Below, piece by piece: positions 1,902-18,571 of a stretch of 22,835 nucleotides of DNA. Position numbers and translations under genes: made by a program. Source of the DNA: a virus. Within the stretch, counting starts at the first letter, position 1. Each line of letters begins with the position of its first letter. The stretch lies in the IMG/VR virus record IMGVR_UViG_3300010157_000268, positions 1-22,835 of that record; one strand, written 5' to 3'. The notes beneath the pieces were generated by a model that searched no databases, had not been told where the DNA came from, and saw only the letters and a list, made by a program, of their open reading frames with translations.

Positions 1902-2273
1902 TTATTTTGTTGCAGTAGTTGCTACTTTCGCAGCATCTTCACTAGCCTTAGTTAATGTTGCAATTTGAGCATCCATATCCCTTTTCTTTTGTAAATATGT
2001 TGCATCAGTCTGGCTTAATTTAGATAATTGCAGTTTAAGATCATCAATTTTAACTTGAGTATCTTCAATTACACCTTCCATTACTGGAGTCTTGACTGTT
2101 TTTGAATAGTCAGGCACGGTAATTTTAGGATGAGTTAAGTCAGCTCTTTTTACTTGGTCTATTGACTTTTCCTTTTTAACTGGATCTGCTGCTTTTACGC
2201 TAGTTGCAGTTTTTGGGTCACTAAGTTTTCCACCAGTTTTAAAGTCTTTGAAATTTAAAATTTTGTTACTCAT
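1902..2273 (-). CDS. Small late protein with capsid-targeting-like N terminus
   Basis: 123 aa, hydrophilic and Lys/Thr/Asp rich. The N terminus MSNKILNFKDFKTGGKLSDP carries the I-L-N-F-x-[DE]-F motif shared with other late genes here (14125-15066, 12893-13177, 2289-2561). Residues 70-115 (VIEDTQVKIDDLKLQLSKLS and following) have coiled-coil heptad character, and the C terminus is Ala/Thr rich. Low complexity and high charge suit an internal head or scaffold-like protein; that role is inferred from the motif and from the late box 15 nt upstream (2289-2297). There is no recognisable enzyme signature. Confidence 0.6.
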   Translation of the reverse strand: MSNKILNFKDFKTGGKLSDPKTATSVKAADPVKKEKSIDQVKRADLTHPKITVPDYSKTVKTPVMEGVIEDTQVKIDDLKLQLSKLSQTDATYLQKKRDMDAQIATLTKASEDAAKVATTATK

Positions 2274-2288
2274 AGTAATTGTTTTTTG

Positions 2289-2297
2289 TTATTTATC
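2289..2297 (-). promoter_or_regulatory. T4-type late promoter box GATAAATAA
   Basis: Minus strand reads GATAAATAA, 15 nt before the ATG at 2273. It matches T4 late consensus TATAAATA in 7 of 8 positions. The last three bases are the stop codon of the upstream gene (D-K-stop). Confidence 0.6.
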
Positions 2298-2561
2298 AAT
2301 TTCTGGATCGCCTTGGTATTTACCAGAATGGAATTCCTCAAACTTAAGAACTTTATAGCTCTTTGGGTTTGCGCCAAGCGGTGTTGAGTTAGCTGTCATA
2401 TCACGTCTAGAAATAGGTTGACTTGATAACCAGAATGTCGGTATTCCACCCATACTGATTCCAGTAGGGCTGGGTTGAATATTCCGGTCAGTTTGTTGAT
2501 TAAACGAACTTGCAGGAACCGTAACTTCACCAGATGACATTTTTGAATTGTGCATATCCAT
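2289..2561 (-). CDS. Small late protein with C-terminal F-E-E-F motif
   Basis: 90 aa as given, or 83 aa if translation starts at the third Met (2540, MSSGEVTVPASSF). The first Met is only 4 nt from the late box at 2566-2574, while the other boxes here lie 15-22 nt from the start, so the Met at 2540 (25 nt) or 2555 may be the real start. The body is Ser/Pro/Gln/Gly rich and probably disordered. The C terminus (PKSYKVLKFEEFHSGKYQGD) carries the same L-x-F-E-E-F motif that other late proteins have at their N terminus. No family recognised; internal head protein is a possibility. Confidence 0.55.
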   Translation of the reverse strand: MDMHNSKMSSGEVTVPASSFNQQTDRNIQPSPTGISMGGIPTFWLSSQPISRRDMTANSTPLGANPKSYKVLKFEEFHSGKYQGDPEIDK

Positions 2562-2565
2562 AGGA

Positions 2566-2574
2566 TTATTTATT
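2566..2574 (-). promoter_or_regulatory. T4-type late promoter box AATAAATAA
   Basis: Minus strand AATAAATAA lies between the terminator at 2592-2617 and the gene at 2289-2561. It matches TATAAATA in 7 of 8 positions. Confidence 0.5.
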
Positions 2575-2591
2575 CCCGTTCCAGCCTAAAT

Positions 2592-2617
2592 AAAAAAAGC
2601 CCGATAAACGGGCTTTT
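2592..2617 (-). terminator. Rho-independent terminator after the EF-hand/zinc-ribbon gene
   Basis: On the minus strand GCCCG (2613-2609) pairs with CGGGC (2603-2599) around TTTAT, extended by an A4/T4 pairing and followed by seven T (2598-2592). It lies 22 nt past the stop at 2639. Confidence 0.85.
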
Positions 2618-2638
2618 AATTTAAAATAATTAGAGCTA

Positions 2639-3598
2639 TTAATAATAAAGCCCAGCAGTATCGTCTTCATCACGTATTGGATGTCTGCGCCTTAATTCAT
2701 TACTTTGGCTATCTGGATCCTGTGACATTCCTTCTGCTTTGCACTTTTTGCATTTATGACCTGGGTAACCATCGTATTTAGTTCCGCAGTTTTTACATGA
2801 ATATATTCCTCTAGGAGTAGGATTTGCTATTTCTGGATCGTTTGCAAAGTCTGCATTTGCTGCAAGCTTTGCCTCTCTGTCCAAACCTCTTAATTTTCGG
2901 TTAGGGTAATATTGATTAGCCGTTAAGTCTTCCTCTGACTCTTCTACTGGCATACTAGCAGCAGCTTCCATCATGCACTCAGTCATATATGAACCACATT
3001 CGTTTAAATAGTTTTCGTAAGTATGCATTGGGTCAGCATCTTCATCACATCTTTGAGCTTCTTGAATTAACATTTCTTCGCATAGTGCTTTTATTGCTCT
3101 TTTAGCTTCTTCTGACATTGCTAGATTGTAACCTTCTTCCATAGGAGTCCAGCACTCATTTACAAAACCTTCAAAAGTTTCAGCAACTTTACCTTCAGTA
3201 TCTTTTTTAGACTTTTTAGATTTATTAAGTAATTTAAAATCTTCTGAATCAATTTTACCGTTATGATTCTTATCTAATTTTACCTGTTTGCCCTTAAGTT
3301 TTTCATCAACTTCTTCAGTTTCTACATATTCAACCTCTACTGGAATAGAATATTCATGTTCACCGTGTTGAGCAGTTAACATTCCTTCTCCATCATAATT
3401 AAATTGAAGCTCTAATTCTTCGCCGCTTTTAGTTCTAATTACAATCATTGCATGGTCATCTCCGTGGCCAGACATAGATACTATTGTTGGTTGCATTTCA
3501 TCATCCTGGTGTTCCTCTTGGATGTGAGGGTTTGAACCTATTCTATCATCAGGTTTATTCATGAACTTAGGTAGTTTATTTTTACCAAATTTTCCCAT
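2639..3598 (-). CDS. Late protein with EF-hand, prohead-cleavage-like motifs and zinc ribbon
   Basis: 319 aa, very acidic. Residues 36-95 form a beta-rich stretch (IVSMSGHGDDHAMIVIRTKS and on). Residues 109-120 are an EF-hand/dockerin-like calcium loop: D109, N111, N113, G114, I116, D117, D120. Two related segments follow, TFEGFVNEC (141-149) and TYENYLNEC (193-201), which resemble the T4 capsid-targeting/gp21 cleavage pattern. Residues 268-286 form a zinc ribbon (C268-x2-C271, C283-x2-C286). The tail is charged. It has its own late box at 3618 and a strong terminator, so it is probably a single-gene late transcript. Function unknown; an internal head or scaffold-type protein that is proteolytically processed is the favoured inference. 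The metal-binding motifs are visible; binding itself is not shown. Confidence 0.65.
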   Translation of the reverse strand: MGKFGKNKLPKFMNKPDDRIGSNPHIQEEHQDDEMQPTIVSMSGHGDDHAMIVIRTKSGEELELQFNYDGEGMLTAQHGEHEYSIPVEVEYVETEEVDEKLKGKQVKLDKNHNGKIDSEDFKLLNKSKKSKKDTEGKVAETFEGFVNECWTPMEEGYNLAMSEEAKRAIKALCEEMLIQEAQRCDEDADPMHTYENYLNECGSYMTECMMEAAASMPVEESEEDLTANQYYPNRKLRGLDREAKLAANADFANDPEIANPTPRGIYSCKNCGTKYDGYPGHKCKKCKAEGMSQDPDSQSNELRRRHPIRDEDDTAGLYY

Positions 3599-3617
3599 TG
3601 TGTATGGATATTTTTAA

Positions 3618-3626
3618 TTATTTATC
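3618..3626 (-). promoter_or_regulatory. T4-type late promoter box GATAAATAA
   Basis: Minus strand GATAAATAA, 19 nt before the ATG at 3598. Its last three bases are the stop codon of the HldE-like kinase gene (C-P-D-K-stop). Confidence 0.6.
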
Positions 3627-4400
3627 TGGACACTCTACTGAAACTACGCCCTTTTGTGAAACTGCTATACCTGCACAGACATTAGCAAATTGAATAGCTT
3701 GGATAATATCATTACTTTTTAGATATTCAACCACCAAGCCAGCAATAAAGCTATCACCAGCACCAGATACGTCCTTTACTTCAGTTGGGTTAAGCGGATA
3801 TACTTGAGTTCCGTTCCATTTGGCGCCTTCTGCTCCAAGCGTAATAATTAGCTTATCCATACTACCCTTAATGAAGTCCTTATTGTGTGCTGGATTCTCA
3901 AACTCTCTTTTATTAATCTTAATAAAATTAAAATCATTAGCCCACCAGCCTAGAGGTTTTTTAGTATCAATAAAACTTAATTTAGCGTGGCGTGCAATCT
4001 TTTCTAAGGTTTCTTCAGTTAGAAAACCTTTATTATAGTCAGAAACTACTACAATATCAGCGGATGTAATTTGATATAAAATTTCCGAATCAAGCGAACC
4101 AATTGTAAGTGGTTCAACTGGTCCATCATTATCTACCCGTAATAGAATATAGTTTGAATTAATATCTACAAATCGGTGTTTGGTAATTTTTCCATTTGCT
4201 TGACCTATAAAATCAACATCAATTTCCCAATTTCCAGCAATGCTTCTGATATTACCGTATACATTACTTGCCATTCCACCATTGGTTTCAATATGATCTG
4301 ATTGAAAAATTGGAGTTGGGGCTTCAGGATTAAGTCGGGTACATTTACCATATTCAAATATGTCAATACAGGCTTCGCCTATTACAAGAATTTTTTTCAT
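3618..4400 (-). CDS. PfkB-family sugar kinase resembling the HldE kinase domain
   Basis: 260 aa. HldE (RfaE) phosphorylates D-glycero-D-manno-heptose 7-phosphate at C1 on the way to ADP-heptose. Landmarks match the E. coli HldE kinase domain in order: RLNPEAPTPIF (RISPEAPVPVV in E. coli), GGMASNV (GGAANV), ITKHRF then ILLRVD, VVSDYNKG (VLSDYAKG), FIDTKKP, INKREFE, DVSGAGDSF with the PfkB catalytic Asp, and FANVCAGIAV. It is about 55 residues shorter than the E. coli domain, mainly in the lid region after residue 60, and has no nucleotidyltransferase domain. It follows the cupin and HldD-like genes by 9 nt, forming one operon. Substrate specificity is inferred; another sugar phosphate is possible. 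Confidence 0.75.
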   Translation of the reverse strand: MKKILVIGEACIDIFEYGKCTRLNPEAPTPIFQSDHIETNGGMASNVYGNIRSIAGNWEIDVDFIGQANGKITKHRFVDINSNYILLRVDNDGPVEPLTIGSLDSEILYQITSADIVVVSDYNKGFLTEETLEKIARHAKLSFIDTKKPLGWWANDFNFIKINKREFENPAHNKDFIKGSMDKLIITLGAEGAKWNGTQVYPLNPTEVKDVSGAGDSFIAGLVVEYLKSNDIIQAIQFANVCAGIAVSQKGVVSVECPDK

Positions 4401-4409
4401 GCTATTAAA

Positions 4410-4790
4410 TTATTTTTGACTGTCGCCTTTCCACACGCGATATGAATCTTCATCCATATGAGTTGTTGAGACCTCAAATATTTCTCCATCAGATAGTGCT
4501 TCAATTTGATGAGGTTGCCCAGGTAACTGACGAACTACATCGCCTACCGTAAGAGTCTGCTCTTGAACTTCAGCAGTTTCAGTATCAATCCATCTGTATA
4601 TGAATGCTCCCGTGTTAACGTACCAAGTTTCATCCTTAAGCAAATGATAGTGCATTGAGAATTTACAACCTTCGTTAAATTGTAAAATCTTGCCACAGTA
4701 CTTATCATTATTTTCAATTATAATTTCTCTGCCCCAACCTTTTGGAACTTCACAACCTTTGCAAACTGTTGGTTTAATTTGATGACCCAT
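4410..4790 (-). CDS. Cupin-fold protein, sugar-isomerase-like
   Basis: 126 aa, single cupin barrel. Motif 1 is HYHLLKDETWYVNTG (H-x-H-x5-E pattern giving two His and a Glu metal ligand), and motif 2 is GDVVRQLPGQPHQIEAL with the second His. The PKGWGREIII opening recalls the C-terminal cupin of type II phosphomannose isomerases/ManC. A Cys pair (CKGC, near residues 10-13) precedes it. It overlaps the end of the epimerase gene by 17 nt and is followed closely by the kinase gene, so it probably acts on the same sugar phosphate or nucleotide sugar. The reaction cannot be read from sequence: isomerase, epimerase or regulatory sugar binding are all possible. Confidence 0.7.
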   Translation of the reverse strand: MGHQIKPTVCKGCEVPKGWGREIIIENNDKYCGKILQFNEGCKFSMHYHLLKDETWYVNTGAFIYRWIDTETAEVQEQTLTVGDVVRQLPGQPHQIEALSDGEIFEVSTTHMDEDSYRVWKGDSQK

Positions 4791-5610
4791 CTTCTTTTGA
4801 TTTTTTTAAATATTCTAAATATGCTGGAACTCCAGTATCAATTGTCCATAAAGGTGTCCAGCCAGGTAACCATTCATTTTTGTTACTTATTGTAAAAAAT
4901 TGATATCCGCTAGGAATTATTGAGTCCTCAGTGTATTCAAATGGTATTTGCATCAATTGCATAACTTCTTCAAAAGATCTTGACTCTCCGCTGCCTACAT
5001 CAAAATGATTGCCTGCAAATTGCTCGTAATTCTCAAGTGCATGTAAGTTTGCAGAAACAATATCATCAACATAAACAAAATCTCTAGTTGGTTTCTTTGG
5101 AAACAATATTACCCTTTCTTCAGCTTGCCTTTTTAACCATGATTGATATGCAACTGATGCCATTTTGCCTTTATGTTCTTCACCAGGTCCATACACATTA
5201 AAATATCTAAGTGCAATTCCGCCCTTTGCTTTTACTATATCTTCAGCTGCATATTTGCTCCAGCCATATAGGTTAGATGGGTTCTTTCCATTAACCCCAT
5301 AGTTTGCAGCAGATGATGAATAGATCATTTTACAATTTGCCATATAACAATATTCAGATAATATTTTAGTGGCTTCATAATTAAGATTCATCATGTAATT
5401 TACATTCTGTTCTAGCGTATCAGAACATGCTCCAACATGAAATATTACGTCAGGCGATAAGCTTGCAACAATATCAATTAATTGACTTTGCCAATCGTCA
5501 ACCACCATAAAATCATTAACGTCTATTCCATAAACTGTCCAATTTTTATCTAATTTACTGATTAGATTTTTTGCGATAAATCCCTGATCGCCAGTTACAA
5601 GTATCTTCAT
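4774..5610 (-). CDS. hldD: HldD-like ADP-L-glycero-D-manno-heptose 6-epimerase
   Basis: 278 aa extended SDR enzyme (E. coli HldD is 310 aa). The N terminus has the Rossmann nucleotide-binding glycine motif ([12 protein letters not shown]). HVGACSDT corresponds to the HldD signature [17 protein letters not shown] to SSAATYG, and YGWSK holds the catalytic Y-x3-K. [20 protein letters not shown] is nearly identical to the HldD segment [20 protein letters not shown], and RDFVYVDDI follows. HldD converts ADP-D,D-heptose to ADP-L,D-heptose for the inner LPS core. Its start shares one base with the ClpC-like stop (TAATG), implying translational coupling. The family assignment is strong; the exact nucleotide sugar used by the phage enzyme is not proved. 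Confidence 0.85.
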   Translation of the reverse strand: [278 protein letters not shown]

Positions 5611-7589
5611 TATTTAATAGTTAACTTTGTATCTTTAGCCTTATGGTTAATCACTAATTGATCTCCATCTTTAATTTTACCATCAATATATGCTTCAGCT
5701 ATAAGATCTTCAACATGAGTTTGAATAGCTCTTTTTAATGGACGAGCTCCAAATTTATGATCGTAACCTGCTTCAATTAAGAATTCTTTTGCTGACTTCG
5801 TTAATTCAACAGTATAACCGTTTTCCTTTACTCTTGAATAAAGATCTAATAATTCAACTTCAATTATTTGAGCAACATCCTCTTTCTTTAGGGACTCAAA
5901 TATAATAATATCATCTAGTCGATTAATAAATTCTGGTGCAAACTGTTTACTAACCGCTTTTCTTAAAATACCTGACGCTAATTCTTTTTGCTGTTCAAAT
6001 GGAGTTGATGATGAGAATCCAATACCTCCACCAAAATCTTGTAATTCCTTAACTCCTAAATTTGAAGTCATAATAATTACAGTATTCTTAAAATCTATTT
6101 TTCGGCCAAGTCCATCAGTCATATGGCCTTCGTCTAATACTTGCAATAGGGTATGGAAAATATCTGGATGGGCTTTCTCAACTTCATCTAATAAGATAAC
6201 TGAATAGGGTTTGCGTTTTACTTTTTCGGTTAACTGCCCTCCTTCTTCATATCCTACATAGCCTGGAGGAGCTCCTATTAATTTGGTTGATGTGAATTTT
6301 TCTCCAAATTCAGTCATATCAATTCTGATTAGGGAATCATCTGTATCAAACAGAAATTTTGCTAACTGTTTAGCTAATTCGGTTTTACCAACTCCAGTTG
6401 GGCCTAGGAACATGAATGTACCGATTGGCCGATTTTTAGATTTAAGACCTGCTCTTGAGCGTTGAATTGCTTTAGTTAATTTAGACACGGCTTCAGATTG
6501 ACCAATAACTCTTTCTTTTAACCACTTAGCCATTGTTGATAACCGTTCAAGCTCCGAACCTTTTAATCGGGTAACCGGTATACCTGTCATAATTGCAACA
6601 ACATTTGCAATATCTTCTTCTGATACAGTTAGTCGATTAATCTTTAACGACTCTTCCCATTGAACCTTTTCATCATCAATATCTTTCATTACTTTAAGAG
6701 CATCATCTCTAAGTTTTGCAGCCGCTTCGTATTGTTGTGCATCGACTGCTTTTTGTTTTTTAGCACTTACCTCAACAAATTTTTCTTCTAATTTTTTAAT
6801 TGCTTCTGGCACAACTACTCCATTGATATGAACTGCTGCACCAGCTTCGTCCATTAAGTCAATTGCTTTATCTGGTAAAAATCTGTCCTGTAAATATCGG
6901 TCACTATATGCAACACATGCATCAAGTGCCTCATCAGTATACTTAACTGAATGATGATCTTCATATTTAGATCTGATATTCTCAATGATCTGGCGTGATT
7001 GTTCTAGGGTAGATGGATTTACCATTACCTGTTGAAAGCGGCGACTAAGAGCACCATCTTTTTCAATTGATCCTCTAAACTCGTCTAGTGTGGTTGCACC
7101 AATACACTGAATTTCTCCACGACTAAGTGCTGGTTTTAGGATATTTGCAGCATCTAATGATCCACTTGCAGAACCTGCTCCAATTAAGGTATGAATTTCA
7201 TCAATGAACAGAATAACATTTGGATTTACCTGAACCTCTTCTATTATTTGTTCCATGCGCTCTTCAAACTGACCTCGATATTTTGTACCTGCTACTAAAT
7301 TCGCCAGTTCAAGAGTTATTATTTTCTTATCAAATAAAACTCGCGGACAGGTTTTATCAATAATCATTTTAGCAAGACCTTCAACGATTGCAGTTTTACC
7401 TACTCCAGGTTCCCCAATCAAGAGAGGATTATTTTTCTTTCTACGAGCCAAGATTTGACTACATCTGCGTATTTCTTTCTCTCTGCCAACTACTGGATCT
7501 AATTTGCCCTCTAGTGCAAGTTGAGTAAGATCTTTACCGAATGAATCAAGCATTGGTGTTTTGCCGGTTTTGCTATTCTGTTTTGCCAT
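5610..7589 (-). CDS. ClpC/ClpB-type AAA+ unfoldase lacking the N-domain
   Basis: 659 aa with two AAA+ modules. Module 1: Walker A GEPGVGKT (59-66), pore loop KYRG (103-106), Walker B VILFIDE (125-131), arginine finger LSRRF. A UVR-like helix ([16 protein letters not shown], 287-302) sits where ClpC has its middle domain. Module 2: GPTGVGKT (396-403), pore loop GYVGYEEG, Walker B VILLDE (464-469), FINRLD. The double Clp N-terminal repeat is missing: the protein begins about ten residues before the LDSFGKDLT motif. The tripeptide IGF (523-525) sits where ClpC/ClpX carry the ClpP-docking loop. Such enzymes unfold proteins through the central pore; this one may feed host ClpP or act as a chaperone. 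It heads the operon with HldD, cupin and the kinase. Confidence 0.9.
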
Positions 7590-7612
7590 GTATATGTATT
7601 GTAGTTATTTTA

Positions 7613-8248
7613 TTAGTCCCACCAGCCGCGTAATCCGCTACCGTCAAATTGTTTTTGCCAATTGTCCCATGCGGTTTTATGTTCAATATCTCCATTAGTA
7701 TCCTTTTCAAATTTTGAATAATCTTGACCCTTTATTAGGTGACATAATTCGTTCCATTCTTGCTCTTCAATTTCACGAGATCGTGCAAATACTTTACGAT
7801 TATGTTCACGTTCTTCCGGCGTATCGTGATCTACTAATTGAGAATATCCTGGTTTATCTGGAACATCTTCAAATTCCCATGGATGATGTATGGTTTCGCC
7901 TAATTCAGCCTCAGCCAGTTGGATAAAATCATCATCAATAAAATGTTGCATAAGTTCTGCTGCGCGTTTCATAGCTTTAACCTTTTTACCTGAGCTGGTT
8001 TCTTCTTCAATGCCGTCTCTTTCAATTCGGATTGCTATATTATGGAGCGCAACTTGTAATAACGGTAATACTGCGTGTTGACCGCTCCACCATCTATAAT
8101 TCCAGACAGCTTTGCGAAACATCCACATATTTTTTAAACCTCTAGGTAAATCATATCTGAAAAAATCCCAGGTTTTCCAATACCAGCGTTCTCTATTAAT
8201 CATTCTTTTGAAACTATCAAAGAATGTATCAGCAAATCCTATTTCCAT
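7613..8248 (-). CDS. Conserved-looking hypothetical phage protein, Trp/acid rich
   Basis: 211 aa, no signal peptide. The N terminus is unusually rich in Trp and aromatics (RERWYWKTWDFF, MFRKAVWNYRWW), followed by a helical middle (VLPLLQVALHNIAIRIERDG) and a highly charged C-terminal part ending DGSGLRGWWD. The layout resembles a family of unknown function seen in many large phages; this is recognition by general appearance only, and no function is known to me. It lies 23 nt upstream of the ClpC-like gene and 2 nt after the membrane-protein gene, so all may share a transcript. Confidence 0.6.
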   Translation of the reverse strand: MEIGFADTFFDSFKRMINRERWYWKTWDFFRYDLPRGLKNMWMFRKAVWNYRWWSGQHAVLPLLQVALHNIAIRIERDGIEEETSSGKKVKAMKRAAELMQHFIDDDFIQLAEAELGETIHHPWEFEDVPDKPGYSQLVDHDTPEEREHNRKVFARSREIEEQEWNELCHLIKGQDYSKFEKDTNGDIEHKTAWDNWQKQFDGSGLRGWWD

Positions 8249-8250
8249 AA

Positions 8251-8532
8251 TTAATCTATTTGTTTTTTAATTGTGTCTGGTGTACTTGAAACAGTATTTG
8301 TTACAACTACATCACAGTGATTTTTTTTACATGACGCCGGTATCCTTAGTGTATCGTGAATGACAATCTTAGTTTCAATTCTAATTGTATCATGCTGGAT
8401 CGAGTCTACTTCTAATATAACCTTAGCTGACTGAGGTTTAAATACAGCAAAGACTGTACCTGTAACTACCAGTGCTGTTGCTAGTATAATAATACTTGCG
8501 CCGGTTATGAATAATCTATTAAACTTGTTCAT
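8251..8532 (-). CDS. Single-pass inner-membrane protein
   Basis: 93 aa. Residues 7-30 (LFITGASIIILATALVVTGT and on) form one transmembrane helix after a short positive N terminus, so the C-terminal 60 residues should be periplasmic. That part has a doubled strand-like element, HDTIRI and HDTLRI, and two Cys (CKKNHC). It overlaps the upstream gene by 14 nt. Membrane-anchored small phage proteins can be spanins, holin partners or superinfection-exclusion factors. Nothing here decides between them, and no lipoprotein partner is encoded next to it. Confidence 0.6.
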   Translation of the reverse strand: MNKFNRLFITGASIIILATALVVTGTVFAVFKPQSAKVILEVDSIQHDTIRIETKIVIHDTLRIPASCKKNHCDVVVTNTVSSTPDTIKKQID

Positions 8533-8977
8533 CTATTTTAGTAATTAAGGTTTTTAATGAGTGTTTGACATTATTTCTAAAATTAGCTTCCATTTCATTT
8601 CGCCGTATTTCAACTTCTCCAACAAATGCATTGTATAAAGTTTTATAGGTTTTTGGTGAAAGACTAATATTATAACCAAATACATGATTAATAACAGTAA
8701 GTTCGTTTTGATCCATTATTATTAAAATATGGTTCTCATCATTTTTAACATAGTGTTTGCCAAGTACTGGACTAATTAACAATTCACTATTTGACAATTT
8801 AATCATTTTTTTAAAAACGCTAGCGGCTTCACGCTCGCTATTATCAAAGTTTTTTGACTTAATTGTAGTTGGATCAAGTGCTTTAGCTATGCGAAGCGCA
8901 AGTAGTTGAGATAGCCTTTTAAATCTATGCATTCGACTAATCTTATCAACTAGTTTATTTTGATTTGAGTGTATCAT
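8519..8977 (-). CDS. Hypothetical protein
   Basis: 152 aa, basic N terminus and no recognisable domain. The first Met (8977) is only 6 nt downstream of a TATAAT-like element (8984-8989). If that element is a real promoter, translation would be leaderless or start at Met16 (8932, MHRFKRLSQLLALRIAKAL). The centre (HILIIMDQNELTVINHVFGY) looks like beta strands; the C terminus is helical. No function suggested. Confidence 0.55.
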   Translation of the reverse strand: MIHSNQNKLVDKISRMHRFKRLSQLLALRIAKALDPTTIKSKNFDNSEREAASVFKKMIKLSNSELLISPVLGKHYVKNDENHILIIMDQNELTVINHVFGYNISLSPKTYKTLYNAFVGEVEIRRNEMEANFRNNVKHSLKTLITKIDEQV

Positions 8978-8981
8978 ATAG

Positions 8982-8993
8982 CTATTATACTAA
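8982..8993 (-). promoter_or_regulatory. Possible -10-type promoter element TTAGTATAATAG
   Basis: Minus strand TTAGTATAATAG; the same core (TAGTATAATA) occurs before the genes at 12376 and 15991. No clear -35 element. The short distance to the ATG at 8977 weakens the call. Confidence 0.35.
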
Positions 8994-8996
8994 ATA

Positions 8997-9368
8997 TTAA
9001 TGAGGCCTGCCAAAAATAGATTCAAATAGGTCAAGATTAGTTTTTTCAAGACCATACTCAACAAAATCAGTTGAGCATCTCATTTCCTCAACACATTTCC
9101 AAAGACTTGGAATATCATAACAAATTGGATTACCGTCTTTATCCCAAGCTTGATTTGGCTCTTCGGCTAAGTCATCCCTCTCATAAATAAACCAAGAAAT
9201 CCAATCCTCTGCCTCCTTTCCATAATACGCTCTAAGTAATAAAGTAATAGTCGCACAATAAGAATCCTCATAGTCCATCAAGTCAACTCCTAATCGATAC
9301 AGAGTTCGGCTTTTATCCTGTTGCTCCTTAATTTGAGTTACTATCTTTTCGAATACTTCCAGCTTCAT
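8997..9368 (-). CDS. Hypothetical protein of a phage-typical type
   Basis: 123 aa, acidic. It contains the aromatic segment YYGKEAEDWISWFIYERDD followed by a WDKDGNPICYD turn and a helical end (LWKCVEEMRC). The G-K-E-x-E-D-W-I-S-W-F core is something I associate with small conserved proteins in many large phages, without known function. Its start overlaps the upstream gene by 41 nt, the longest overlap in the window; the next in-frame Met is far downstream, so the overlap appears real. Confidence 0.6.
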   Translation of the reverse strand: MKLEVFEKIVTQIKEQQDKSRTLYRLGVDLMDYEDSYCATITLLLRAYYGKEAEDWISWFIYERDDLAEEPNQAWDKDGNPICYDIPSLWKCVEEMRCSTDFVEYGLEKTNLDLFESIFGRPH

Positions 9369-9567
9369 TTAGAATAATTTTAGATTGATTTTCGATTCTT
9401 TGAATATACTCTTCGATTACAACTTCCATGCCAGATTGAAGTAGTCGAGTTAGGTCTTCTTGCGAAGTAACCATGCCCATTTGCTGAGCTGATGCTAATG
9501 CTTGAACTGTTTGAATTGCACCTTCTTTTGCAATTTGTTCAATTAAGCTAAGTTCATTATTTTCCAT
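9328..9567 (-). CDS. Small acidic helical protein
   Basis: 79 aa, predicted mostly helical (IEQIAKEGAIQTVQALASA, then LTRLLQSGMEVVIEEYIQRI). No Cys, no membrane segment. The 5' end overlaps the end of the upstream 59-codon gene by 11 nt and the 3' end overlaps the next gene by 41 nt, as expected in a tightly packed phage operon. Function unknown. Confidence 0.5.
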   Translation of the reverse strand: MENNELSLIEQIAKEGAIQTVQALASAQQMGMVTSQEDLTRLLQSGMEVVIEEYIQRIENQSKIILNEAGSIRKDSNSN

Positions 9568-12892: not shown

Positions 12893-13177
12893 TTAAAGAG
12901 TAGCGTCTTCTGCGCCAGCTTCTTTTTCACTCGGCTCAACTTCTATAGTCGGCTCATTATCAGCCATCATATTGGTAGAAAGAGCATGATCAGTATCTCC
13001 AGTTTCAGGAGCTTCAGCTGGTGCTGGTTCGTTATCATTACCTAGCGGTAATTCAGCAGTCATTTCTTGTGAATCTTGTGATCCATTGCCCATACCCATA
13101 GGCATTCCCATTTCTGGATTGCTATTTGATTGAGTAAACTCTTCAAAGCTTAAAATTTTACTATGACTTGTTTCCAT
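12893..13177 (-). CDS. Acidic disordered late protein with capsid-targeting-like N terminus
   Basis: 94 aa. The N terminus METSHSKILSFEEFTQSNS contains the I-L-S-F-E-E-F motif shared with other late genes here. A Met/Gly patch (MGMPMGMGNG) follows, then a Pro/Glu/Ala-rich acidic tail. It is strongly acidic and low in complexity, with no Cys or membrane segment. It has its own late box 19 nt upstream (13197-13205). The layout suits an internal or scaffold-like head protein; that is inference. Confidence 0.6.
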   Translation of the reverse strand: METSHSKILSFEEFTQSNSNPEMGMPMGMGNGSQDSQEMTAELPLGNDNEPAPAEAPETGDTDHALSTNMMADNEPTIEVEPSEKEAGAEDATL

Positions 13178-13246: not shown

Positions 13247-13993
13247 TTATTCAGTTACTGGAATTCCACAATTAGGGCAGAATTTCCAGGTTGCTTTTTT
13301 ATGGCGGGTTCCACAGCCGGTGCAATAAGAGCGAATTTCTCCCATTTCAACAGGTTTTTTACTTTCTGGTAAAATTTGCCAAGTACTGGTTGCACAAGTC
13401 CATGAGTTAAAATTACCATAGGTATTGGAAAATTGCTGTTTAGAACTTTTACCCTTTTCAACAATACCCGTCTCAACTGAGTTAGCTGAAATGCTTGAGC
13501 TGCAGGTAAAGACGCCAGCGCTTCCGCCAACAGTTAACGTGCTAGGTTGATTATAGTAATTGGTTGTAATTGTATTACCATAAAGCATTACCGGAGGTTG
13601 ATATGAAATAGATTCATCATAGAACAGAACTTCTACCTTACCGTTATTTGCAATTGCTAATTTGGTTTGGCTAGAGTCATCAACTTCATATGTTGTAAAC
13701 TTGAATTTTTTAGCAACATCAATGAATCTTTCAAGAAAGACCCTTTGGCCAGGTCTTAATACAATACCCGCAGCCGATAGTACTTGACTATTGATCCAGA
13801 TTTTTGCTAATACTGATGTTGTTTTTGGATTGTAGAGTTCAATTTCAAAATTTGAACCGTCTTTTAAATAGACATTTGACCCGTAGGTTTTTAGTCGTCC
13901 TCTGCCCTTTGTGATTGTTGCAGATGGTTGTGGATTACTAAAGCTTGTGTAAACTGCAGTAGACCCACTAGTTGTGATGTTTTGTTGGTACAT
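13247..13993 (-). CDS. Virion-like protein with C-terminal zinc ribbon
   Basis: 248 aa. Residues 45-105 are beta rich (NFEIELYNPKTTSVLAKIWI, GIVLRPGQRVFLERFID, KKFKFTTYEVD), the type of L-R-P-G-Q-R-V segment seen in phage and large-virus structural proteins. The middle is Ser/Thr/Asn rich (residues 145-205). The C terminus is a zinc ribbon, C224-x2-C227 and C239-x2-C242 (SYCTGCGTRH and FCPNCGIPV). The transcript from the late box at 14125 would have a leader of about 130 nt, unusually long for this window. The gene is bracketed by a near-perfect inverted repeat. Function unknown. Confidence 0.6.
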   Translation of the reverse strand: MYQQNITTSGSTAVYTSFSNPQPSATITKGRGRLKTYGSNVYLKDGSNFEIELYNPKTTSVLAKIWINSQVLSAAGIVLRPGQRVFLERFIDVAKKFKFTTYEVDDSSQTKLAIANNGKVEVLFYDESISYQPPVMLYGNTITTNYYNQPSTLTVGGSAGVFTCSSSISANSVETGIVEKGKSSKQQFSNTYGNFNSWTCATSTWQILPESKKPVEMGEIRSYCTGCGTRHKKATWKFCPNCGIPVTE

Positions 13994-14072
13994 AAGAGTT
14001 GTGTTATTTTATGCTTATCTCATTGTAACCTTCTATTGATTACTCAAGGGCTCGTAAACCCGAGACAAACAG

Positions 14073-14094
14073 AGCGAGGCTCTATGTTTCCAGT
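14073..14094. repeat. Inverted repeat, right arm, in the leader of the zinc-ribbon gene
   Basis: Reads AGCGAGGCTCTAT, then TTTCCAGT. It is the reverse complement of the arm at 13212-13234 apart from a small spacer change. The segment AGAGC-GAG-GCTCT (14071-14083) is also a local hairpin, and a second short palindrome (CTCG/CGAG, 14051-14064) lies next to it. The rest of 13994-14124 shows no gene. Confidence 0.75.
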
Positions 14095-14124
14095 ATTATT
14101 TAACTATGATTAATTAAAAAGTTT

Positions 14125-14133
14125 TTATTTATA
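14125..14133 (-). promoter_or_regulatory. T4-type late promoter box TATAAATAA
   Basis: Exact TATAAATA on the minus strand. It overlaps the stop of the gene at 14125-15066 (Y-K-stop). It would transcribe the zinc-ribbon gene with a leader of about 130 nt. Confidence 0.6.
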
Positions 14134-15066
14134 CTTAAGTGAAAATGATCCTCCGCGATTTGCGTAATCTACAAAAAGACTATCTGCAACTTGACAGTTT
14201 TGCCATTTACCATCTGGGCCAACCGGTAATGAAATTTGATCGCCAGCTCTTAGTGTTTTAGGAACTTTTCGACCGTCGGCCAAAGCAACATCAACCTTAA
14301 TAAACCTATCAGCTCTAGCTGATTCTCGATTAACTACTGATAATACTTCAACTTTAGTTAAATTGTCCTTATCAATAAATGGAATAATTACTTTAATATG
14401 TCTACCTGAGGTTAATGCAAATTCCTTTTCAGTAACAATACCGTGACCTGCATATATTTGTCCAGTGTGATGTTTAATTTCTCCAGTTTTACCTAATTCA
14501 ATAACATATTCAGAATCTCCAGATAATACTGTACTCGTTTTAACCTCCAGCTTCTTAGTAATAAAATGCTTGTCTGAATCCTTTTCAATATCAATATCTG
14601 TATAATTTGCAGGTAATACCTTAACTGTAGTCACTACATTATCAGCAACATAAACGCATAATCTTTCGCCAGTATAAGTCTTTTTAATTATCGACTTTTT
14701 TCCTGTGCGCTTATCAATTACTTCATTTTCTGATGTTACTGATACTGATATTGGAAAAATATCATGGCCGTATTTTAATTGAGGATCCAATAACACAACT
14801 ACTCTATTGCCATCTGGAAAATCAGGGCGCTCTATTCGATTGGTAAGACGACGCATAAACTCGTCTTTGATCATTTGAGTTGCTTCGTTTGAGACATCCG
14901 CTAGTGATCTGCCAGTCATTGAGATTTTCTTTCTCGCAGCAGCTGGAAAGTCAATAACGGTTCCGTCCTTTAAGCTATCTTTAATACGTTGTTCTACTCT
15001 CTTATCCGCATGTGGTGATAAACTAGCCTCAAGCAGTAAAAAGTCATTAAAATTAAGAATATTCAA
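14125..15066 (-). CDS. Late protein with capsid-targeting-like N terminus (TTG start)
   Basis: 313 aa. The start is TTG (15066), preceded by AAGG 6 nt upstream. It is chosen because it keeps the motif MNILNFNDFLLLEASLSP intact and because a late box lies 20 nt upstream. L-L-L-E-A resembles a T4 gp21 cleavage site, predicting removal of the first 13 residues. The rest begins with a helical segment (residues 20-80, including RKKISMTGRSLADVSNEATQ), then becomes beta rich (VVVLLDPQLKYGHDIFPISV and on). No enzymatic motif was found. An internal capsid or core protein cut by the prohead protease is inferred; family not recognised. Confidence 0.6.
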   Translation of the reverse strand: MNILNFNDFLLLEASLSPHADKRVEQRIKDSLKDGTVIDFPAAARKKISMTGRSLADVSNEATQMIKDEFMRRLTNRIERPDFPDGNRVVVLLDPQLKYGHDIFPISVSVTSENEVIDKRTGKKSIIKKTYTGERLCVYVADNVVTTVKVLPANYTDIDIEKDSDKHFITKKLEVKTSTVLSGDSEYVIELGKTGEIKHHTGQIYAGHGIVTEKEFALTSGRHIKVIIPFIDKDNLTKVEVLSVVNRESARADRFIKVDVALADGRKVPKTLRAGDQISLPVGPDGKWQNCQVADSLFVDYANRGGSFSLKYK

Positions 15067-15086
15067 AATACCTTGATAATTTTAGG

Positions 15087-15095
15087 TTATTTATC
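15087..15095 (-). promoter_or_regulatory. T4-type late promoter box GATAAATAA
   Basis: Minus strand GATAAATAA, 20 nt before the TTG start at 15066. Confidence 0.6.
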
Positions 15096-15110
15096 AACTC
15101 TATACTACGC

Positions 15111-15287
15111 CTAATTACTTTTACTATGGTCAAAGGTTTTAGTAACTATTGTTGACTTGGTTGATACAATGGAATCAATTCCATGAACAATTAGCTTACG
15201 GACAGCTTCTCCTAATTGCATATCATTTGGGAACTCCGCTACTAATTCATGGATTTTTTCAATTGTAACTGTTACTTTAGTAGTCAT
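15111..15287 (-). CDS. Small 58-aa protein
   Basis: ATG at 15287, TAG at 15111-15113. The product (MTTKVTVTIEKIHELVAEFP, then NDMQLGEAVRKLIVHGIDSI) looks like a short strand followed by two helices, somewhat like a ribbon-helix-helix DNA-binding protein. That resemblance rests on pattern only. It lies 15 nt after the zinc-ribbon gene in the same direction and fills an otherwise empty 236-nt gap. No Shine-Dalgarno is seen. Confidence 0.5.
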   Translation of the reverse strand: MTTKVTVTIEKIHELVAEFPNDMQLGEAVRKLIVHGIDSIVSTKSTIVTKTFDHSKSN

Positions 15288-15302
15288 AATTTATTTGTTA
15301 AT

Positions 15303-15506
15303 TTATCCGAATTTTGCAATGCTTTTGTATTTCTTTTTAATATCGTCAATCTCAGACATTGCTGCACTAAATTTTTTCTTAATTTCATCATTTACTGAAA
15401 AGTCTAAAATTACTTGACAATTTGGGCAGACTGATACTGGGTGCTTCATTATAAAAGCTAAATCAATACCGAGTGGGGTTCTACACGCTGGACAAGGTAA
15501 AGCCAT
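15303..15506 (-). CDS. Small zinc-ribbon protein
   Basis: 67 aa. C5-x2-C8 (PCPAC) and C27-x2-C30 (VCPNC) form a zinc ribbon, followed by a charged helix (EIKKKFSAAMSEIDDIKKKY). It lies 2 nt downstream of a DUF2589-like gene and probably shares its transcript. Small zinc ribbons of this type occur in transcription or translation factors and as adaptors; its role here is unknown. Confidence 0.6.
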   Translation of the reverse strand: MALPCPACRTPLGIDLAFIMKHPVSVCPNCQVILDFSVNDEIKKKFSAAMSEIDDIKKKYKSIAKFG

Positions 15507-15508
15507 AA

Positions 15509-15991
15509 TTATGAGGTTGGATTTGAGGAATCCTCAAGTTTTTGAATATAGGCATCCACTAGTCTAGAAATCATTTCAGGTTTAGTATCCGATTTGAATT
15601 TAACACGAATTTTTGACATTCCGGAACCATCTGTGTTTTTGCCTGAATCTACTTCAATTCCATTAATATTGTGTTCATAGCCCTTTTTCCTAAATAATCC
15701 AAGTAAGGAGCGTTTAAGATCCGACACTTCTTTATCGCTATTTCCAAATATCAATCTGGCTTCAAATTCAATATCTAACTCTTCAAGGCCAATAGAAGAA
15801 TGATCTGCCATAATATACAAAGGCACAATCAATTCACGTTCCCCAATTTTAAAAGTTTTAACTTTAGGTGTACCGTCTTCATTAAAATAGTTTGCAAGGG
15901 CATTAATATGTTGCCTTTCGCTTATTCCTTGAGCTACCATTGCGGCTTCTAATAAACCTCCAACTAGCTCTTCAATATTTAATCTTGCCAT
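15509..15991 (-). CDS. DUF2589-like protein (second copy)
   Basis: 160 aa. Layout matches DUF2589-type proteins and the neighbour at 16100-16699: an N-terminal helix (IEELVGGLLEAAMVAQGISE), a segment with V-K-T-F-K-I-G and ELIVPLYIMAD, then LEELDIEFEARLIF as the 'strand after the linker', and a charged C-terminal helix. Identity to the neighbour is low, so the paralogy is tentative. A TATAAT-type element lies 26 nt upstream and a terminator separates it from the late gene at 16100, so it appears to be in a different expression class. Confidence 0.55.
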   Translation of the reverse strand: MARLNIEELVGGLLEAAMVAQGISERQHINALANYFNEDGTPKVKTFKIGERELIVPLYIMADHSSIGLEELDIEFEARLIFGNSDKEVSDLKRSLLGLFRKKGYEHNINGIEVDSGKNTDGSGMSKIRVKFKSDTKPEMISRLVDAYIQKLEDSSNPTS

Positions 15992-16015
15992 ACTTATTTG
16001 GGTTAAACTCCTTTT

Positions 16016-16027
16016 CTATTATACTAA
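16016..16027 (-). promoter_or_regulatory. Candidate early/middle -10 element TTAGTATAATAG
   Basis: Minus strand TTAGTATAATAG with TATAAT at 16023-16018, 26 nt before the ATG at 15991. Same core and spacing as the element at 12402. No -35 hexamer is evident. Confidence 0.5.
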
Positions 16028-16046
16028 CTTAAAATAATTAGTTTAT

Positions 16047-16078
16047 AAAAAAGAGGCTAGTGTTTAGCTAGCCTCTTT
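16047..16078 (-). terminator. Rho-independent terminator after the DUF2589 gene
   Basis: AAAGAGGCTAG (minus strand, 16078-16068) pairs with CTAGCCTCTTT (16060-16050) around a 7-nt loop, followed by a T-run. It ends transcripts of the gene at 16100-16699. Confidence 0.8.
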
Positions 16079-16099
16079 GGTTAAATCTACTTATTCTAA

Positions 16100-16699
16100 T
16101 TACTTAGACTGTGGATCAGCAGTAAGTGGAATTAATGATGGCTCTAACATTTGAGTTAGGTAATCAGATAATTTCAACATACCTTCAGTTGCTGGTAATT
16201 GTTCAGCATGTACTTTTACATTGTATTTTGCTGAATTATCAGTGCTACGTGTGTTCTCTTTATGAGTTGACACTTTACCTGCCATGCTAACTGAATATTT
16301 CATACCCCAAAATCCGCCAGAAGCTGAAGCCGAAATAGATGCTTCAGTATCAGTACTTGATTTGTCTACTTCAGACGTTTTAACTTCCATTGTAAATTCA
16401 ATATCAGCTGAGGTAATAGCCAATGAAGGAAGTGGAACCAATGGTAACATTGGAACTTTTGAATAAAGTGTTTGAACTGTTTGTTCGCCAGTAGTACCGT
16501 CTGTTACTACTCGGTTCATTTCAACGTCTAAAGAGCGAGCTGAAGTTTTGCCGTCTTTGTCCGTTACGAATGCAACTTCTGAAATATATTTCCAGGTTAC
16601 GTCGTTTAATTTTGCTTGTCCTTTTGCCATACCGACTATTGGAGATACAATAAGATCTTCAATAGGTAATCCAGCAAATTGTTGTGCGATGTCTGCCAT
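16100..16699 (-). CDS. DUF2589 family protein
   Basis: 199 aa. The family layout is clear: N-terminal helix with IEDLIVSPIVGMAKGQAKLN, a central VAFVTD strand, the P-L-L-x-L-V-P-L-P-S-L-A-I-type segment (VPMLPLVPLPSLAITSADIE) leading into FTMEVKTSEV, then a Ser/Thr/Ala-rich low-complexity part and a C-terminal helix. DUF2589 proteins occur in phages and bacteria, with no firm function known to me. It has its own late box 17 nt upstream (16717-16725) and a terminator, so it is probably a single-gene late transcript and abundant in the virion or lysate. Confidence 0.75.
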   Translation of the reverse strand: MADIAQQFAGLPIEDLIVSPIVGMAKGQAKLNDVTWKYISEVAFVTDKDGKTSARSLDVEMNRVVTDGTTGEQTVQTLYSKVPMLPLVPLPSLAITSADIEFTMEVKTSEVDKSSTDTEASISASASGGFWGMKYSVSMAGKVSTHKENTRSTDNSAKYNVKVHAEQLPATEGMLKLSDYLTQMLEPSLIPLTADPQSK

Positions 16700-16716
16700 T
16701 ATTCTTGATTTTTTTA

Positions 16717-16725
16717 TTATTTATC
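16717..16725 (-). promoter_or_regulatory. T4-type late promoter box GATAAATAA
   Basis: Minus strand GATAAATAA, 17 nt before the ATG at 16699. Confidence 0.6.
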
Positions 16726-16768
16726 AGGCAAAGTTGATCACTTTGGGTGAAACTCTAACCTGTATTAA

Positions 16769-17341
16769 TTAGCTTGGAAAATTTTCAAGAGCTGCATCAA
16801 CTTCGTCAGTTAAGTCAGGTCTTACTGTTTGAATTATATCAGCTAGCGAGGCAACTATATTGATTAAATGATGATAGTCATTATATGAATCATATGCCGT
16901 ATCATTATTCTTAATTGAAATTACCTCAACTACCGTATCTTGAATAAAACCTAATAGAATATCAAAATTAACCTGACCACTAAAAGAGTCCTCGTCATCC
17001 GAATATTCTTCAACTGATTTAAGATAGTCTAAATATTCGGTACCCTGTTTAACAAGTTCAGCAAGTTCGGCTTTAGAATCTCCAACTTTAGTAGTTTCGA
17101 TAGTATTACTTGAAATTTTAGTTAGTGCAAATAATGGAACCTTTACCCGGTTTCCTTTTGAATTATGTAATTCAACTGTTGCAAAACTATCATCCATATC
17201 GACAACTCGACCCTTACCTCTATACGAGTCAACATAACTGCCAATATTAATTTCAGGAGAAGCGTCGTCTGCTAATTCTTTATCAGGATTTTCTAGAAAT
17301 TTATCTAGATCAAAATCTTCAAATAATTTAATGTGTTTCAT
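16769..17341 (-). CDS. Late protein with capsid-targeting-like N terminus and KOW/SH3-like segment
   Basis: 190 aa. The N terminus MKHIKLFEDFDLDKFLENPD is nearly the same as that of the lysozyme gene upstream (MKHINLFESW). It is followed by an SH3/KOW-like beta segment (IGSYVDSYRGKGRVVDMDDS then ATVELHNSKGNRVKVPLF) and an acidic helical C terminus. It lies 2 nt downstream of the lysozyme gene, so one transcript from the late box at 18594 likely carries both. Function unknown; packaging into the head is inferred from the motif. Confidence 0.6.
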   Translation of the reverse strand: MKHIKLFEDFDLDKFLENPDKELADDASPEINIGSYVDSYRGKGRVVDMDDSFATVELHNSKGNRVKVPLFALTKISSNTIETTKVGDSKAELAELVKQGTEYLDYLKSVEEYSDDEDSFSGQVNFDILLGFIQDTVVEVISIKNNDTAYDSYNDYHHLINIVASLADIIQTVRPDLTDEVDAALENFPS

Positions 17342-17343
17342 AT

Positions 17344-18189
17344 TTATGCGGATTTTATTATGTCAGCTAGGGTATTTGCCCTATTTCCAACTTGACTTGC
17401 CCATTCTGAGTGTAACATTTCTTTTGATGCTTGTGCAAAATTATTAGATGCAATATATTTTAAAAAATTATTAAATTTAGATACGCCTTTTTTCCCTAAA
17501 TTAAATACCATCTCAGTTAAAACTCCTTGCACTTGTAATGGCAGTTTTTGCCATGACTTTGTAAGATTAGTTGACCCATCTGCTGAGGATAGGGTTTGTG
17601 CATCATTTTTTGCTTTAAGTAAATCATTACCCAATAGTGCATTTATTTGATTGTCAGTAAGCGCAGATTTACCAGATTTAATTTTATCTGGATTTGCTCC
17701 AACTTTTTTAAGTAATTCACTTGAATCTGACCGAGTTAAGTTAAATCCAACCCCAACGGTAGGAACTCCTTTAGAATCTAGGTATTTAACCGGTTTTTTG
17801 CCTTCATGTTGAATTACACGATCCCTAATTGAACTAATTATTTGATCAACTGGCGGAGGCGGAGCAACAAACGATCCCAAATATTTTTCAGCTCTTATAT
17901 TCTTAATGTGAGTATTTATTCGGTCTTTATAAGTTTGATCAAGCATACCAAGTTCGCCATTAATTGCATCTCCTATACTTGAATAGATCCAACCCTTAGT
18001 TTCAACTCCTAATTTTAAAGCCTGATTCACTTTAACCATTGATGCTGCATCTGGAATTAGAATAATTGCAGCTACCAATAAGTCTTCATCTGTTCCAAGA
18101 TCAGCACTTGCTGCTTGAATTTGATCAGCAATTTGGTCAGCAGTAATTGCTTCATTTACCCAACTTTCAAATAGGTTAATGTGTTTCAT
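17344..18189 (-). CDS. GH24 lysozyme with annexin-like N-domain and capsid-targeting-like leader
   Basis: 281 aa. C-terminal GH24 (T4 lysozyme) domain: E129, D138 and T144 keep the exact spacing of T4 lysozyme E11, D20 and T26, within QHEG, YLDSKG and PTVGVGF; the rest of the fold follows to residue 281. Residues 18-98 resemble an annexin repeat, with LGTDEDLLVAAI (31-42) matching the annexin G-T-D-E loop and a second helix-rich half. A Pro-rich hinge (APPPPV, 109-114) joins the domains. The leader MKHINLFESWVNEA mimics the T4 capsid-targeting sequence, with a likely cut after E13. There is no signal peptide. It could act as endolysin or as a virion enzyme delivered with the DNA; the leader favours the latter. 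It is in the operon read from the late box at 18594. Confidence 0.85.
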   Translation of the reverse strand: MKHINLFESWVNEAITADQIADQIQAASADLGTDEDLLVAAIILIPDAASMVKVNQALKLGVETKGWIYSSIGDAINGELGMLDQTYKDRINTHIKNIRAEKYLGSFVAPPPPVDQIISSIRDRVIQHEGKKPVKYLDSKGVPTVGVGFNLTRSDSSELLKKVGANPDKIKSGKSALTDNQINALLGNDLLKAKNDAQTLSSADGSTNLTKSWQKLPLQVQGVLTEMVFNLGKKGVSKFNNFLKYIASNNFAQASKEMLHSEWASQVGNRANTLADIIKSA

Positions 18190-18571
18190 TGTATTTAATT
18201 ATTAATTCACCAACTACTTCAATCTTTCCCATTACTTGTTGAAATGGTGTTTGACCCTTTGCCTCAAATTTATCAATGATTGCATGAAGGTAGGTGTGTA
18301 ATTTTTTTAGTTCAGATTTGGCCTCTTCGATATTAAATTTACCAGCTGCAGCCTTTTTGTAATAGGGTAACTTAACTTTATAGTGCTGATATGTTAATAG
18401 AGAGTCCCCGCCTTTTGCTTTTGTAGTTTCAGCAATCTTAATTGCTCCAGCAAGTCGGTTACTTGCAAATTGTTCAAAGGTTTCAGGTTTCTTTGCTTCA
18501 AATATTGAAGTAGTATAGATTTTACTAACTTCTTTAGTTTGGTGATATAGTTCCCAGTTAAGTATAGACAT
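18176..18571 (-). CDS. Late hypothetical protein, first gene of the lysozyme operon
   Basis: 131 aa from the ATG at 18571; a TTG one codon upstream is less likely. The N terminus MSILNWELYHQTKEVSK partly resembles the I-L-N-F-x-[DE]-F motif of other late proteins. A second element, PETFEQFASNRLAGA, repeats the F-E-x-F core after the possible cleavage site SIFEA. The rest is helical and Lys rich. An SD-like GGGA precedes the ATG, and the late box is 22 nt upstream. It overlaps the lysozyme start by 14 nt. Function unknown. Confidence 0.6.
   Translation of the reverse strand: MSILNWELYHQTKEVSKIYTTSIFEAKKPETFEQFASNRLAGAIKIAETTKAKGGDSLLTYQHYKVKLPYYKKAAAGKFNIEEAKSELKKLHTYLHAIIDKFEAKGQTPFQQVMGKIEVVGELIIKYNETH

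Follow-up and report, generated by a model that had tools for sequence, protein, structure and literature searches.

The 22.8-kb virus record IMGVR_UViG_3300010157_000268 (22,835 nucleotides; hereafter the window) raises the question of why several of its proteins carry the same short element, a hydrophobic-xx-aromatic-xx-aromatic pattern that is often followed by [LIV]-x-E. A first-pass annotation had listed seven such elements and likened them to the capsid-targeting sequence of phage T4, suggesting that the proteins enter the prohead and are trimmed there. Our analysis leads us to assign a probability of about 80% to the explanation that the N-terminal elements are targeting tags of the T4 kind, which would dock cargo on a scaffold array with the same core and be cut by an S77 protease before the cargo is ejected with the DNA. 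We infer docking, cleavage, packaging and ejection from the tag, its enrichment, the unrelated bodies behind it, the protease, the capsid protein and the array, all of which can be read from sequence.

A shared element in the proteins of the window

Positions 1-9467 of the window are 99.9% identical to the end of an 84-kb contig (G008), and a 116-kb relative (G006) shares blocks at 91-94% identity. Longer relatives are G001 (271 kb) and G005 (253 kb), and uncultured huge phages are also related: LR745206 (W01, 635 kb), LR756502 (W02, 642 kb), LR756501 (W04, 735 kb), LR756504 (W05, 636 kb) and LR756500 (W06, 462 kb). We scored N-termini with an 11-column position-specific scoring matrix (PSSM) built from 52 distinct N-termini of the window, G001, G005, G006 and G008. 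W01 contributed only background frequencies to this matrix, and W04, W06, T4 and Prevotella phage Lak-A1 contributed nothing.

All seven listed elements were found in translated open reading frames (ORFs), on the minus strand. The clearest belongs to a lysozyme (17344-18189), whose tag MKHINLFESWVNE (18151-18189) scores 23.9 and is followed by a candidate cut site before Ala. Residues M1, K2, F7, E8, W10, N12 and E13 are invariant in five sequences, and in an AlphaFold2 model residues 1-13 have a confidence score (pLDDT) below 50 and lie outside the modelled fold. The protein at 16769-17341 begins with MKHIKLFEDFDLD (17303-17341; score 7.5), which is kept in its G001, G005 and G006 orthologues and has Asp where T4 has the cleavage Glu; this protein may be targeted yet uncut at the Asp site. 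At 14125-15066 the tag MNILNFNDFLLLE, followed by Ala (15028-15066), requires a TTG start, one of several that our simple gene caller missed, and the G001 orthologue carries the clear tag MKLLKFTQFITEA. The tag METSHSKILSFEEF of 12893-13177 (13136-13177; score 6.0) is kept in G001 and G006, and MSNKILNFKDF of 1902-2273 (2235-2273; score 4.1) is kept in G008, G006, G005 and G001.

The remaining listed copies are not N-terminal. VLKFEEF (2331-2351) lies near the C terminus of the ORF translation of 2289-2561, and a longer G005 protein matching that ORF has a similar VKTFDDF near its own C terminus. Two internal copies in 2639-3598, TFEGFVNE (3155-3178) and TYENYLNE (2999-3022), are kept with small changes in G001, G005, G006 and G008. 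We also identified an eighth protein, absent from the earlier list: 18176-18571, with its ATG at 18571, has the tag-like leader MSILNWELYHQ...SIFE followed by Ala (18497-18571). This leader is kept in G006, and the G005 orthologue reads INWELH, having lost the second aromatic. Alignment of N-termini with relatives, as the first-pass annotation had proposed, found several of the window's elements kept in orthologues. Its count of at least seven held for the element itself and fell far short of the real set.

The tag is enriched at N-termini in relatives of the window's phage

We counted the element in two ways. A loose test asked for a hydrophobic residue at -3 and aromatics at 0 and +3, with the first aromatic at residue 4-12; a strict test asked for a matrix score of at least 10. 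Expectations came from internal windows of the same proteins. The loose pattern was found at 5 of 41 N-termini in the window (0.8 expected), 15/85 in G008 (1.8), 21/119 in G006 (2.6), 42/313 in G001 (5.9) and 46/309 in G005 (6.5), and in W01, W04 and W06 at 135/910 (21.3), 175/976 (25.2) and 63/632 (13.5). Controls also showed an excess: T4 had 16/251 (5.0), of which the majority are not among its known internal proteins, Lak-A1 had 33/581 (15.1) when TAG was translated as a sense codon, and bacterial loci had 12/379 (6.0); crAss001 had 3/97 (2.3). Because this loose N-terminal excess extends even to bacteria, Lak-A1 and T4, we relied on the strict matrix.

By the strict test, 23 of 313 N-termini passed in G001 (0.20 expected), 25/309 in G005 (0.16), 7/119 in G006 (0.08) and 5/85 in G008 (0.08). 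The relatives that gave no seeds behaved alike, with 29/910 in W01 (0.77), 53/976 in W04 (0.65) and 21/632 in W06 (0.25). The matrix passes a single protein in the window, the lysozyme (1/41; 0.09 expected), and the strength of the tag signal therefore rests on the relatives. No N-terminus passed in crAss001 (0/97; 0.04 expected) or in 27 bacterial loci (0/379), a 28th locus having been dropped as phage-like. Lak-A1 had 2/581 (0.33 expected) and T4 4/251 (0.14). The T4 passes are the internal proteins IPII and IPIII, the top T4 proteins of the matrix, together with the outer protein Soc, a false hit, and a spurious ORF at the tRNA genes; IPI scored 8.0, below the threshold. Near the protease gene in 54 relatives, 94 of 627 distinct genes had the loose pattern (14.7 expected) and 16 reached a score of 10. 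Judged by these counts, the element is not a product of chance. For W01 and W04, the strict and loose counts probably bracket the true number of tags, and W01 has a second common tag form, MK[YH]LKxYK[IL]FE[SAN].

A strict search of the last 25 residues gave no clear overall excess of C-terminal copies (G001 2 vs 0.67 expected, G005 4 vs 1.17, W01 3 vs 3.04, G006 1 vs 0.44, G008 1 vs 0.37). One protein of 518-520 residues keeps a C-terminal copy in G001, G006 and G008.

Two observations on the control phages stand apart from these counts. T4 gp61.1 (NC_000866 18966-19130), at 54 residues under our 60-residue limit, starts MKTFKEFIKED and scores 16.7; such a start may mark an internal head protein that has so far been overlooked. 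Treating TAG as an amino-acid codon raises the coding density of Lak-A1 (MK250016) from 0.709 to 0.919, consistent with a recoded TAG.

A modular signal on unrelated proteins

Common descent of the tagged proteins was considered and rejected. After removal of the first 22 residues, their bodies fell nearly all into clusters of their own (phmmer, 1e-3): 42 tagged proteins gave 42 clusters in G001, 46 gave 44 in G005 and 135 gave 124 in W01. In tagged proteins, none of the seven Pfam matches over the cut-off begins before residue 16. An explanation at the nucleotide level was likewise rejected, mainly because the motif shows background usage of its Phe and Glu codons. Glu at +6, which was not a selection criterion, occurs at a frequency of 0.52 at the N-termini of G001, 0.46 in G005 and 0.24 in W01, compared to 0.11, 0.08 and 0.08 internally.

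A T4-type protease fused to an array with the core of the tag

If the tags direct proteins to a prohead, the phages should encode the machinery for it. Pfam S77 matched in 12 of 13 records, in 10 of them over the curated cut-off, and was missing only in G007, a 111-kb fragment. Four of four additional records also matched, two over the cut-off; in W01, W02, W04 and W05 the S77 score was below it. G001-G004 have similar S77 scores and appear to be near copies. The S77 profile found T4 gp21 (PDB 5jbl) at 3.1e-5, and a fold search with a model of the protein reached the same structure at 3.8e-8. This AlphaFold2 model is of low confidence (mean pLDDT 50.8) and usable only in parts of the protease and in the C-terminal domain. 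The catalytic His, Ser and Asp are invariant in seven protease sequences. The S77 gene adjoins a Gp23 capsid gene (Gp23 match in 12 of 13 records), and the capsid proteins of all five relatives examined have a candidate [IL]NE before [SAN] towards the end of their N-terminal region. A second, short S77-like match under the cut-off lies far from this gene in W04 (LR756501, 11386-11787) and W06 (LR756500, 154951-155127).

The main new finding of this analysis is a fusion of the protease with a scaffold-like region in which 14-residue units, I-x-Y-S-E-Y-[LI]-A-E-N, repeat in tandem; the core of these repeats is that of the tags. G008 carries this fusion, and since positions 1-9467 of the window are nearly identical to G008, the window's phage has both a protease of the gp21 type and a capsid protein of the gp23 type. 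The first-pass annotation had tied its proposal to gp21- and gp22-type genes elsewhere in the genome and to the motif recurring on them. T4-type protease and capsid genes are present, and the core does recur, in the scaffold-like array; no separate gene of the gp22 type turned up, and the array forms one ORF with the protease. We assign a putative gp22-like scaffold role to this region from its position beside the capsid gene and its repeated [LIV]-x-Glu sites.

There are 8 repeats in G001-G004, G006 and G008 (9 with a looser pattern), 7 in G005, 15 in G009 and G010, 13 in G011, and chains of 10-12 in W01, W02, W04 and W05; the array of W06 is degenerate. Among the protease loci of the best 80 of 480 relatives, the fusion is complete in 69, each with four or more motifs. 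At least four repeats stand at exact 14-residue spacing in 62 of 64 parsed loci, the other two (L173 and L174) having chains of three, and the other five complete loci contain eight pairs at this spacing. Seven protease loci outside our first array pattern also have an array. Near copies are common among these loci; the 56 distinct fusions, truncated ones among them, yield 685 repeats with the consensus K-N-I-S-Y-S-E-Y-L-A-E-N-L-D, in which Glu at +6 is found in 685/685 by construction because the pattern demands it. Many of the repeat Tyr and Glu columns, not all, are invariant in an 18-sequence alignment. Lak-A1, nearly without tags, has an acidic linker and no array, and no array was seen by eye in Bacillus phage SP-15 or in the jumbo phages GAP32 and 121Q, which differ from the window's group in having separate protease and scaffold genes.

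The fusion gene likely also gives a separate product. A Met lies 3-7 residues before a conserved FVT, ahead of the array, in all 39 parsed distinct contexts, a set that leaves out seven loci with other FVT wording and the seven missed by the first array pattern. The bases upstream of this Met score like a true start, ranking first among the internal Mets of the fusion gene in G001, G005 and W01 (percentiles 98.3, 99.9 and 96.1 among internal Mets). Because the conserved Met precedes the array, the sequence suggests a protease-free scaffold.

Agreement with T4 targeting and cleavage residues

Residues of the T4 IPIII tag have tested roles: residues 4 and 7 mainly govern targeting and residues 8 and 10 processing, and Asp at residue 10 blocks processing and leaves targeting intact (PMC9026906). 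In the N terminus of IPIII, MKTYQEFIAEA, these four residues correspond to positions 0, +3, +4 and +6 of our element, so the short N-terminal element places aromatics at the two T4 targeting positions. T4 internal proteins co-purify with gp22, and the cut motif is L/I-x-E (PMC9026906). T4 gp23 has FGSFLTE followed by Ala at residues 59-66 and is cut after residue 65, releasing a 65-residue propeptide (PMC9958956).

Candidate cleavage sites are present in part of the window's set. An [LI]-x-Glu ends the element in the lysozyme (VNE, then A) and in 14125-15066 (LLE, then A); elsewhere in or near the tag, 18176-18571 has IFE, then A, and 16769-17341 has LFE (then D) and FLE (then N). The sole site in 12893-13177 and in 2289-2561 is an unlikely FEE (then F), and 1902-2273 has no [LIVMF]xE before residue 66. 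Taken together, prohead targeting is well supported by what the genomes encode, namely the T4-type protease and capsid genes, the fit to the T4 residues and the same core in the scaffold-like array. The trimming proposed alongside it would hold for some of the window's proteins only.

A proposed mechanism and its rivals

We propose that the aromatic pair at 0 and +3 docks a protein into the prohead core, which would probably be built from the protease-scaffold fusion, its scaffold half comprising about 6-16 14-residue repeats with an aromatic-xx-aromatic-[LIV]-x-Glu core. The tag of a cargo protein would imitate one scaffold repeat and co-assemble with the array, and initiation at the internal Met would supply protease-free scaffold as well. 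Where [LIV] at +4 and Glu at +6 are present, the S77 protease would cut after Glu; when the protease of the fusion cuts at the repeats of the array, the tag would be released, the cargo freed inside the head and then ejected with the DNA. A stronger form of this idea, on which we are evenly divided, is that the core is a polymer of one 14-residue unit of which each cargo carries a single copy, so that one code loads tens to more than 100 proteins, many of them probably for anti-defence or takeover, for delivery at infection.

Several observations weigh against this interpretation. The element is in no clear excess near the gene for the head-tail adaptor Ad2 in 33 distant relatives (9 of 233 distinct genes vs 6.2 expected; 2 with a score of at least 10). 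The match between tag and array is confined to the core, the hydrophobic residue standing at -3 in tags and -2 in the array, and the array is modelled as a helix at pLDDT of about 30-45. T4 has tags without an array, gp22 included, and the candidate site in the capsid proteins is out of the alignment column of the T4 LTE, then A. A nearby cleavage site is lacking at 8 of 42 loose N-termini in G001, 3/46 in G005, 33/135 in W01, 51/175 in W04 and 17/63 in W06. Asn, Lys and Gln codons in the motif depart from background by up to about 0.2, and the next internal Met of the G001 fusion gene scores nearly as well as the proposed start (percentile 97.6 vs 98.3). Finally, the array half has matches in six INPHARED records, none of them from a cultured phage.

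Such tags without a cleavage site, and copies that are internal or C-terminal, would suit a signal that docks to another phage structure or to a compartment in the infected cell, with the array merely sharing a common amphipathic pattern. We find this improbable, because the element matches the tested T4 targeting and processing residues (PMC9026906), ranks IPII and IPIII highest among T4 proteins, is enriched for the cleavage-site Glu and has its core in the protease-scaffold fusion. Far less probable still is that the N-termini are alike through nucleotide-level selection at translation starts or descent from paralogues. The start regions of these phages are A-rich, the Asn, Lys and Gln codons deviate, and a few tagged bodies are paralogous; however, Phe and Glu codons show the variation seen genome-wide, almost every body forms its own cluster, internal copies are kept between relatives, and crAss001 and the bacterial loci lack the tag on the strict test. 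The alternative to which we give somewhat more weight, still judging it unlikely, keeps cargo status for full [LIV]-x-Glu forms and regards short forms such as MSNKILNFKDF as chance or another signal. The short-form proteins of the window do score only 4-8 on the matrix, and bacterial N-termini have a twofold excess of the loose pattern, but the short forms are kept between orthologues, and IPIII is targeted mainly through residues 4 and 7, even with Asp at residue 10 (PMC9026906).

Predicted cargo

The best-defined tagged protein in the window is the lysozyme (17344-18189, minus strand), a T4-type enzyme with an extra N-terminal helical domain (PF00959, 1.4e-7, over cut-off). It also matches phrog_13211 (2.4e-14) and the internal virion lysozyme motif of phrog_2083 (2.1e-7), and its Foldseek matches include T4 lysozyme chains. 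E129, D138 and T144 are invariant in five sequences, with a spacing that we take to be that of the Glu, Asp and Thr of T4 lysozyme. The helical domain (residues about 17-97, with an LGTDE pattern) may resemble annexin-like repeats. G005 encodes a second tagged protein related to the helical-domain protein (171610, 204439).

A Pfam scan of 40 tagged proteins from relatives gave matches over the curated cut-off in six. These matches include NUDIX in G001 (8.9e-15), Sa_NUDIX (4e-30) and a 2H-family and RNase_T pair (3e-8, 2.6e-7) in W01, and a methyltransferase (5.6e-19) and a radical SAM protein (3.3e-11) in W04; PolyA_pol in W01 (9.8e-30) belongs to the loose set only, with a score of 6.4. Matches under the cut-off were HAD-like (9.2e-4), Acb1 (1.8e-5), 2H (1.7e-5) and NTP_transf_2 (0.003) in G001, and DHH (1.7e-4) and Acb1 (6.7e-5) in W01. 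The tagged 2H-family proteins with these Acb1 (anti-CBASS) matches come from two distant relatives (L097:16983-17531 in G001 and L148:8260-9573 in W01). A PHROG scan of 10 tagged proteins gave only two matches, at E 5e-4 and 0.003, both of unknown function. An injected, anti-defence role for tagged cargo would be in keeping with our model.

Untagged neighbors and probable hosts

The window also encodes the untagged Ad2 (T4 gp13-like; 1148-1888, minus strand; phrog_211, 3.1e-8), whose relatives led us to the head genes. Judged by eye, three untagged genes at 3618-5610 (PfkB-type kinase, cupin, epimerase/dehydratase) resemble a sugar-nucleotide cluster. Neither an Rfam scan nor a tRNA scan gave a match in the window.

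The group consists of very large phages, whose hosts are probably Bacteroidota, likely of fresh water. Bacterial proteins closest to the window's ClpA-like protein come mostly from Bacteroidota, and Bacteroidetes hosts have been predicted for bS21-encoding freshwater phages, whose clade may differ from that of the window (PMC9723584). The locus dropped from our bacterial control (L341; CAIWBA010000291.1, 254 kb) is binned as a Bacteroidetes genome, has the ClpA-like protein at 96% and Ad2-like and tagged genes like those of the window, and appears to be a phage contig that was binned with bacterial sequence.

Relation to known systems and significance

The tags resemble those of T4 IPI, IPII and IPIII in position, in an aromatic pair three apart, in the [LIV]-x-Glu site and in the differing bodies behind them. 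T4 has three such proteins, whereas these phages have tens per genome, with 53 strict and 175 loose (25 expected) in the 735-kb phage. The S77 domain is related to T4 gp21 by sequence and fold and its gene likewise adjoins the capsid gene, but here a single ORF encodes both the protease and the scaffold-like region with its 14-residue array, and an internal start is probable. Proteases fused to scaffold, with scaffold also made from an internal start, are familiar from herpesvirus UL26/UL26.5 and lambda C/Nu3; we know of no tag array in either. Herpes proteases came next in the fold search with the fusion model, at scores that were not significant.

Giant phages of the SPN3US/phiKZ type eject head proteins; they too have many head proteins, some of them cut by a gp21-like protease. 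Several of their propeptides exceed 100 residues and one is of T4 tag length, and the accessible text of that study describes no shared short tag except for two proteins with identical N termini (PMC5694885). An N-terminal signal of P1 DarB brings this anti-restriction protein, and a reporter, into the head, whereas that study found no consensus among the Dar proteins (PMC9024508). In the literature that we searched, from which subscription papers were mostly out of reach, we found no report of a link between tag and array.

A 2023 review called the mechanisms that place certain proteins in the T4 scaffolding core mysterious (PMC9958956). The array repeats the tag's own core and is thus a candidate binding partner for a T4-like tag, visible in sequence. 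If the stronger, one-code form of the idea is true, it would answer what the T4 tag binds, and the set of proteins that such a phage injects would be readable from sequence. The tag would give a function class, head cargo that is likely injected, to many unknown genes of huge phages, and it predicts early-acting proteins that may be relevant to host defences.

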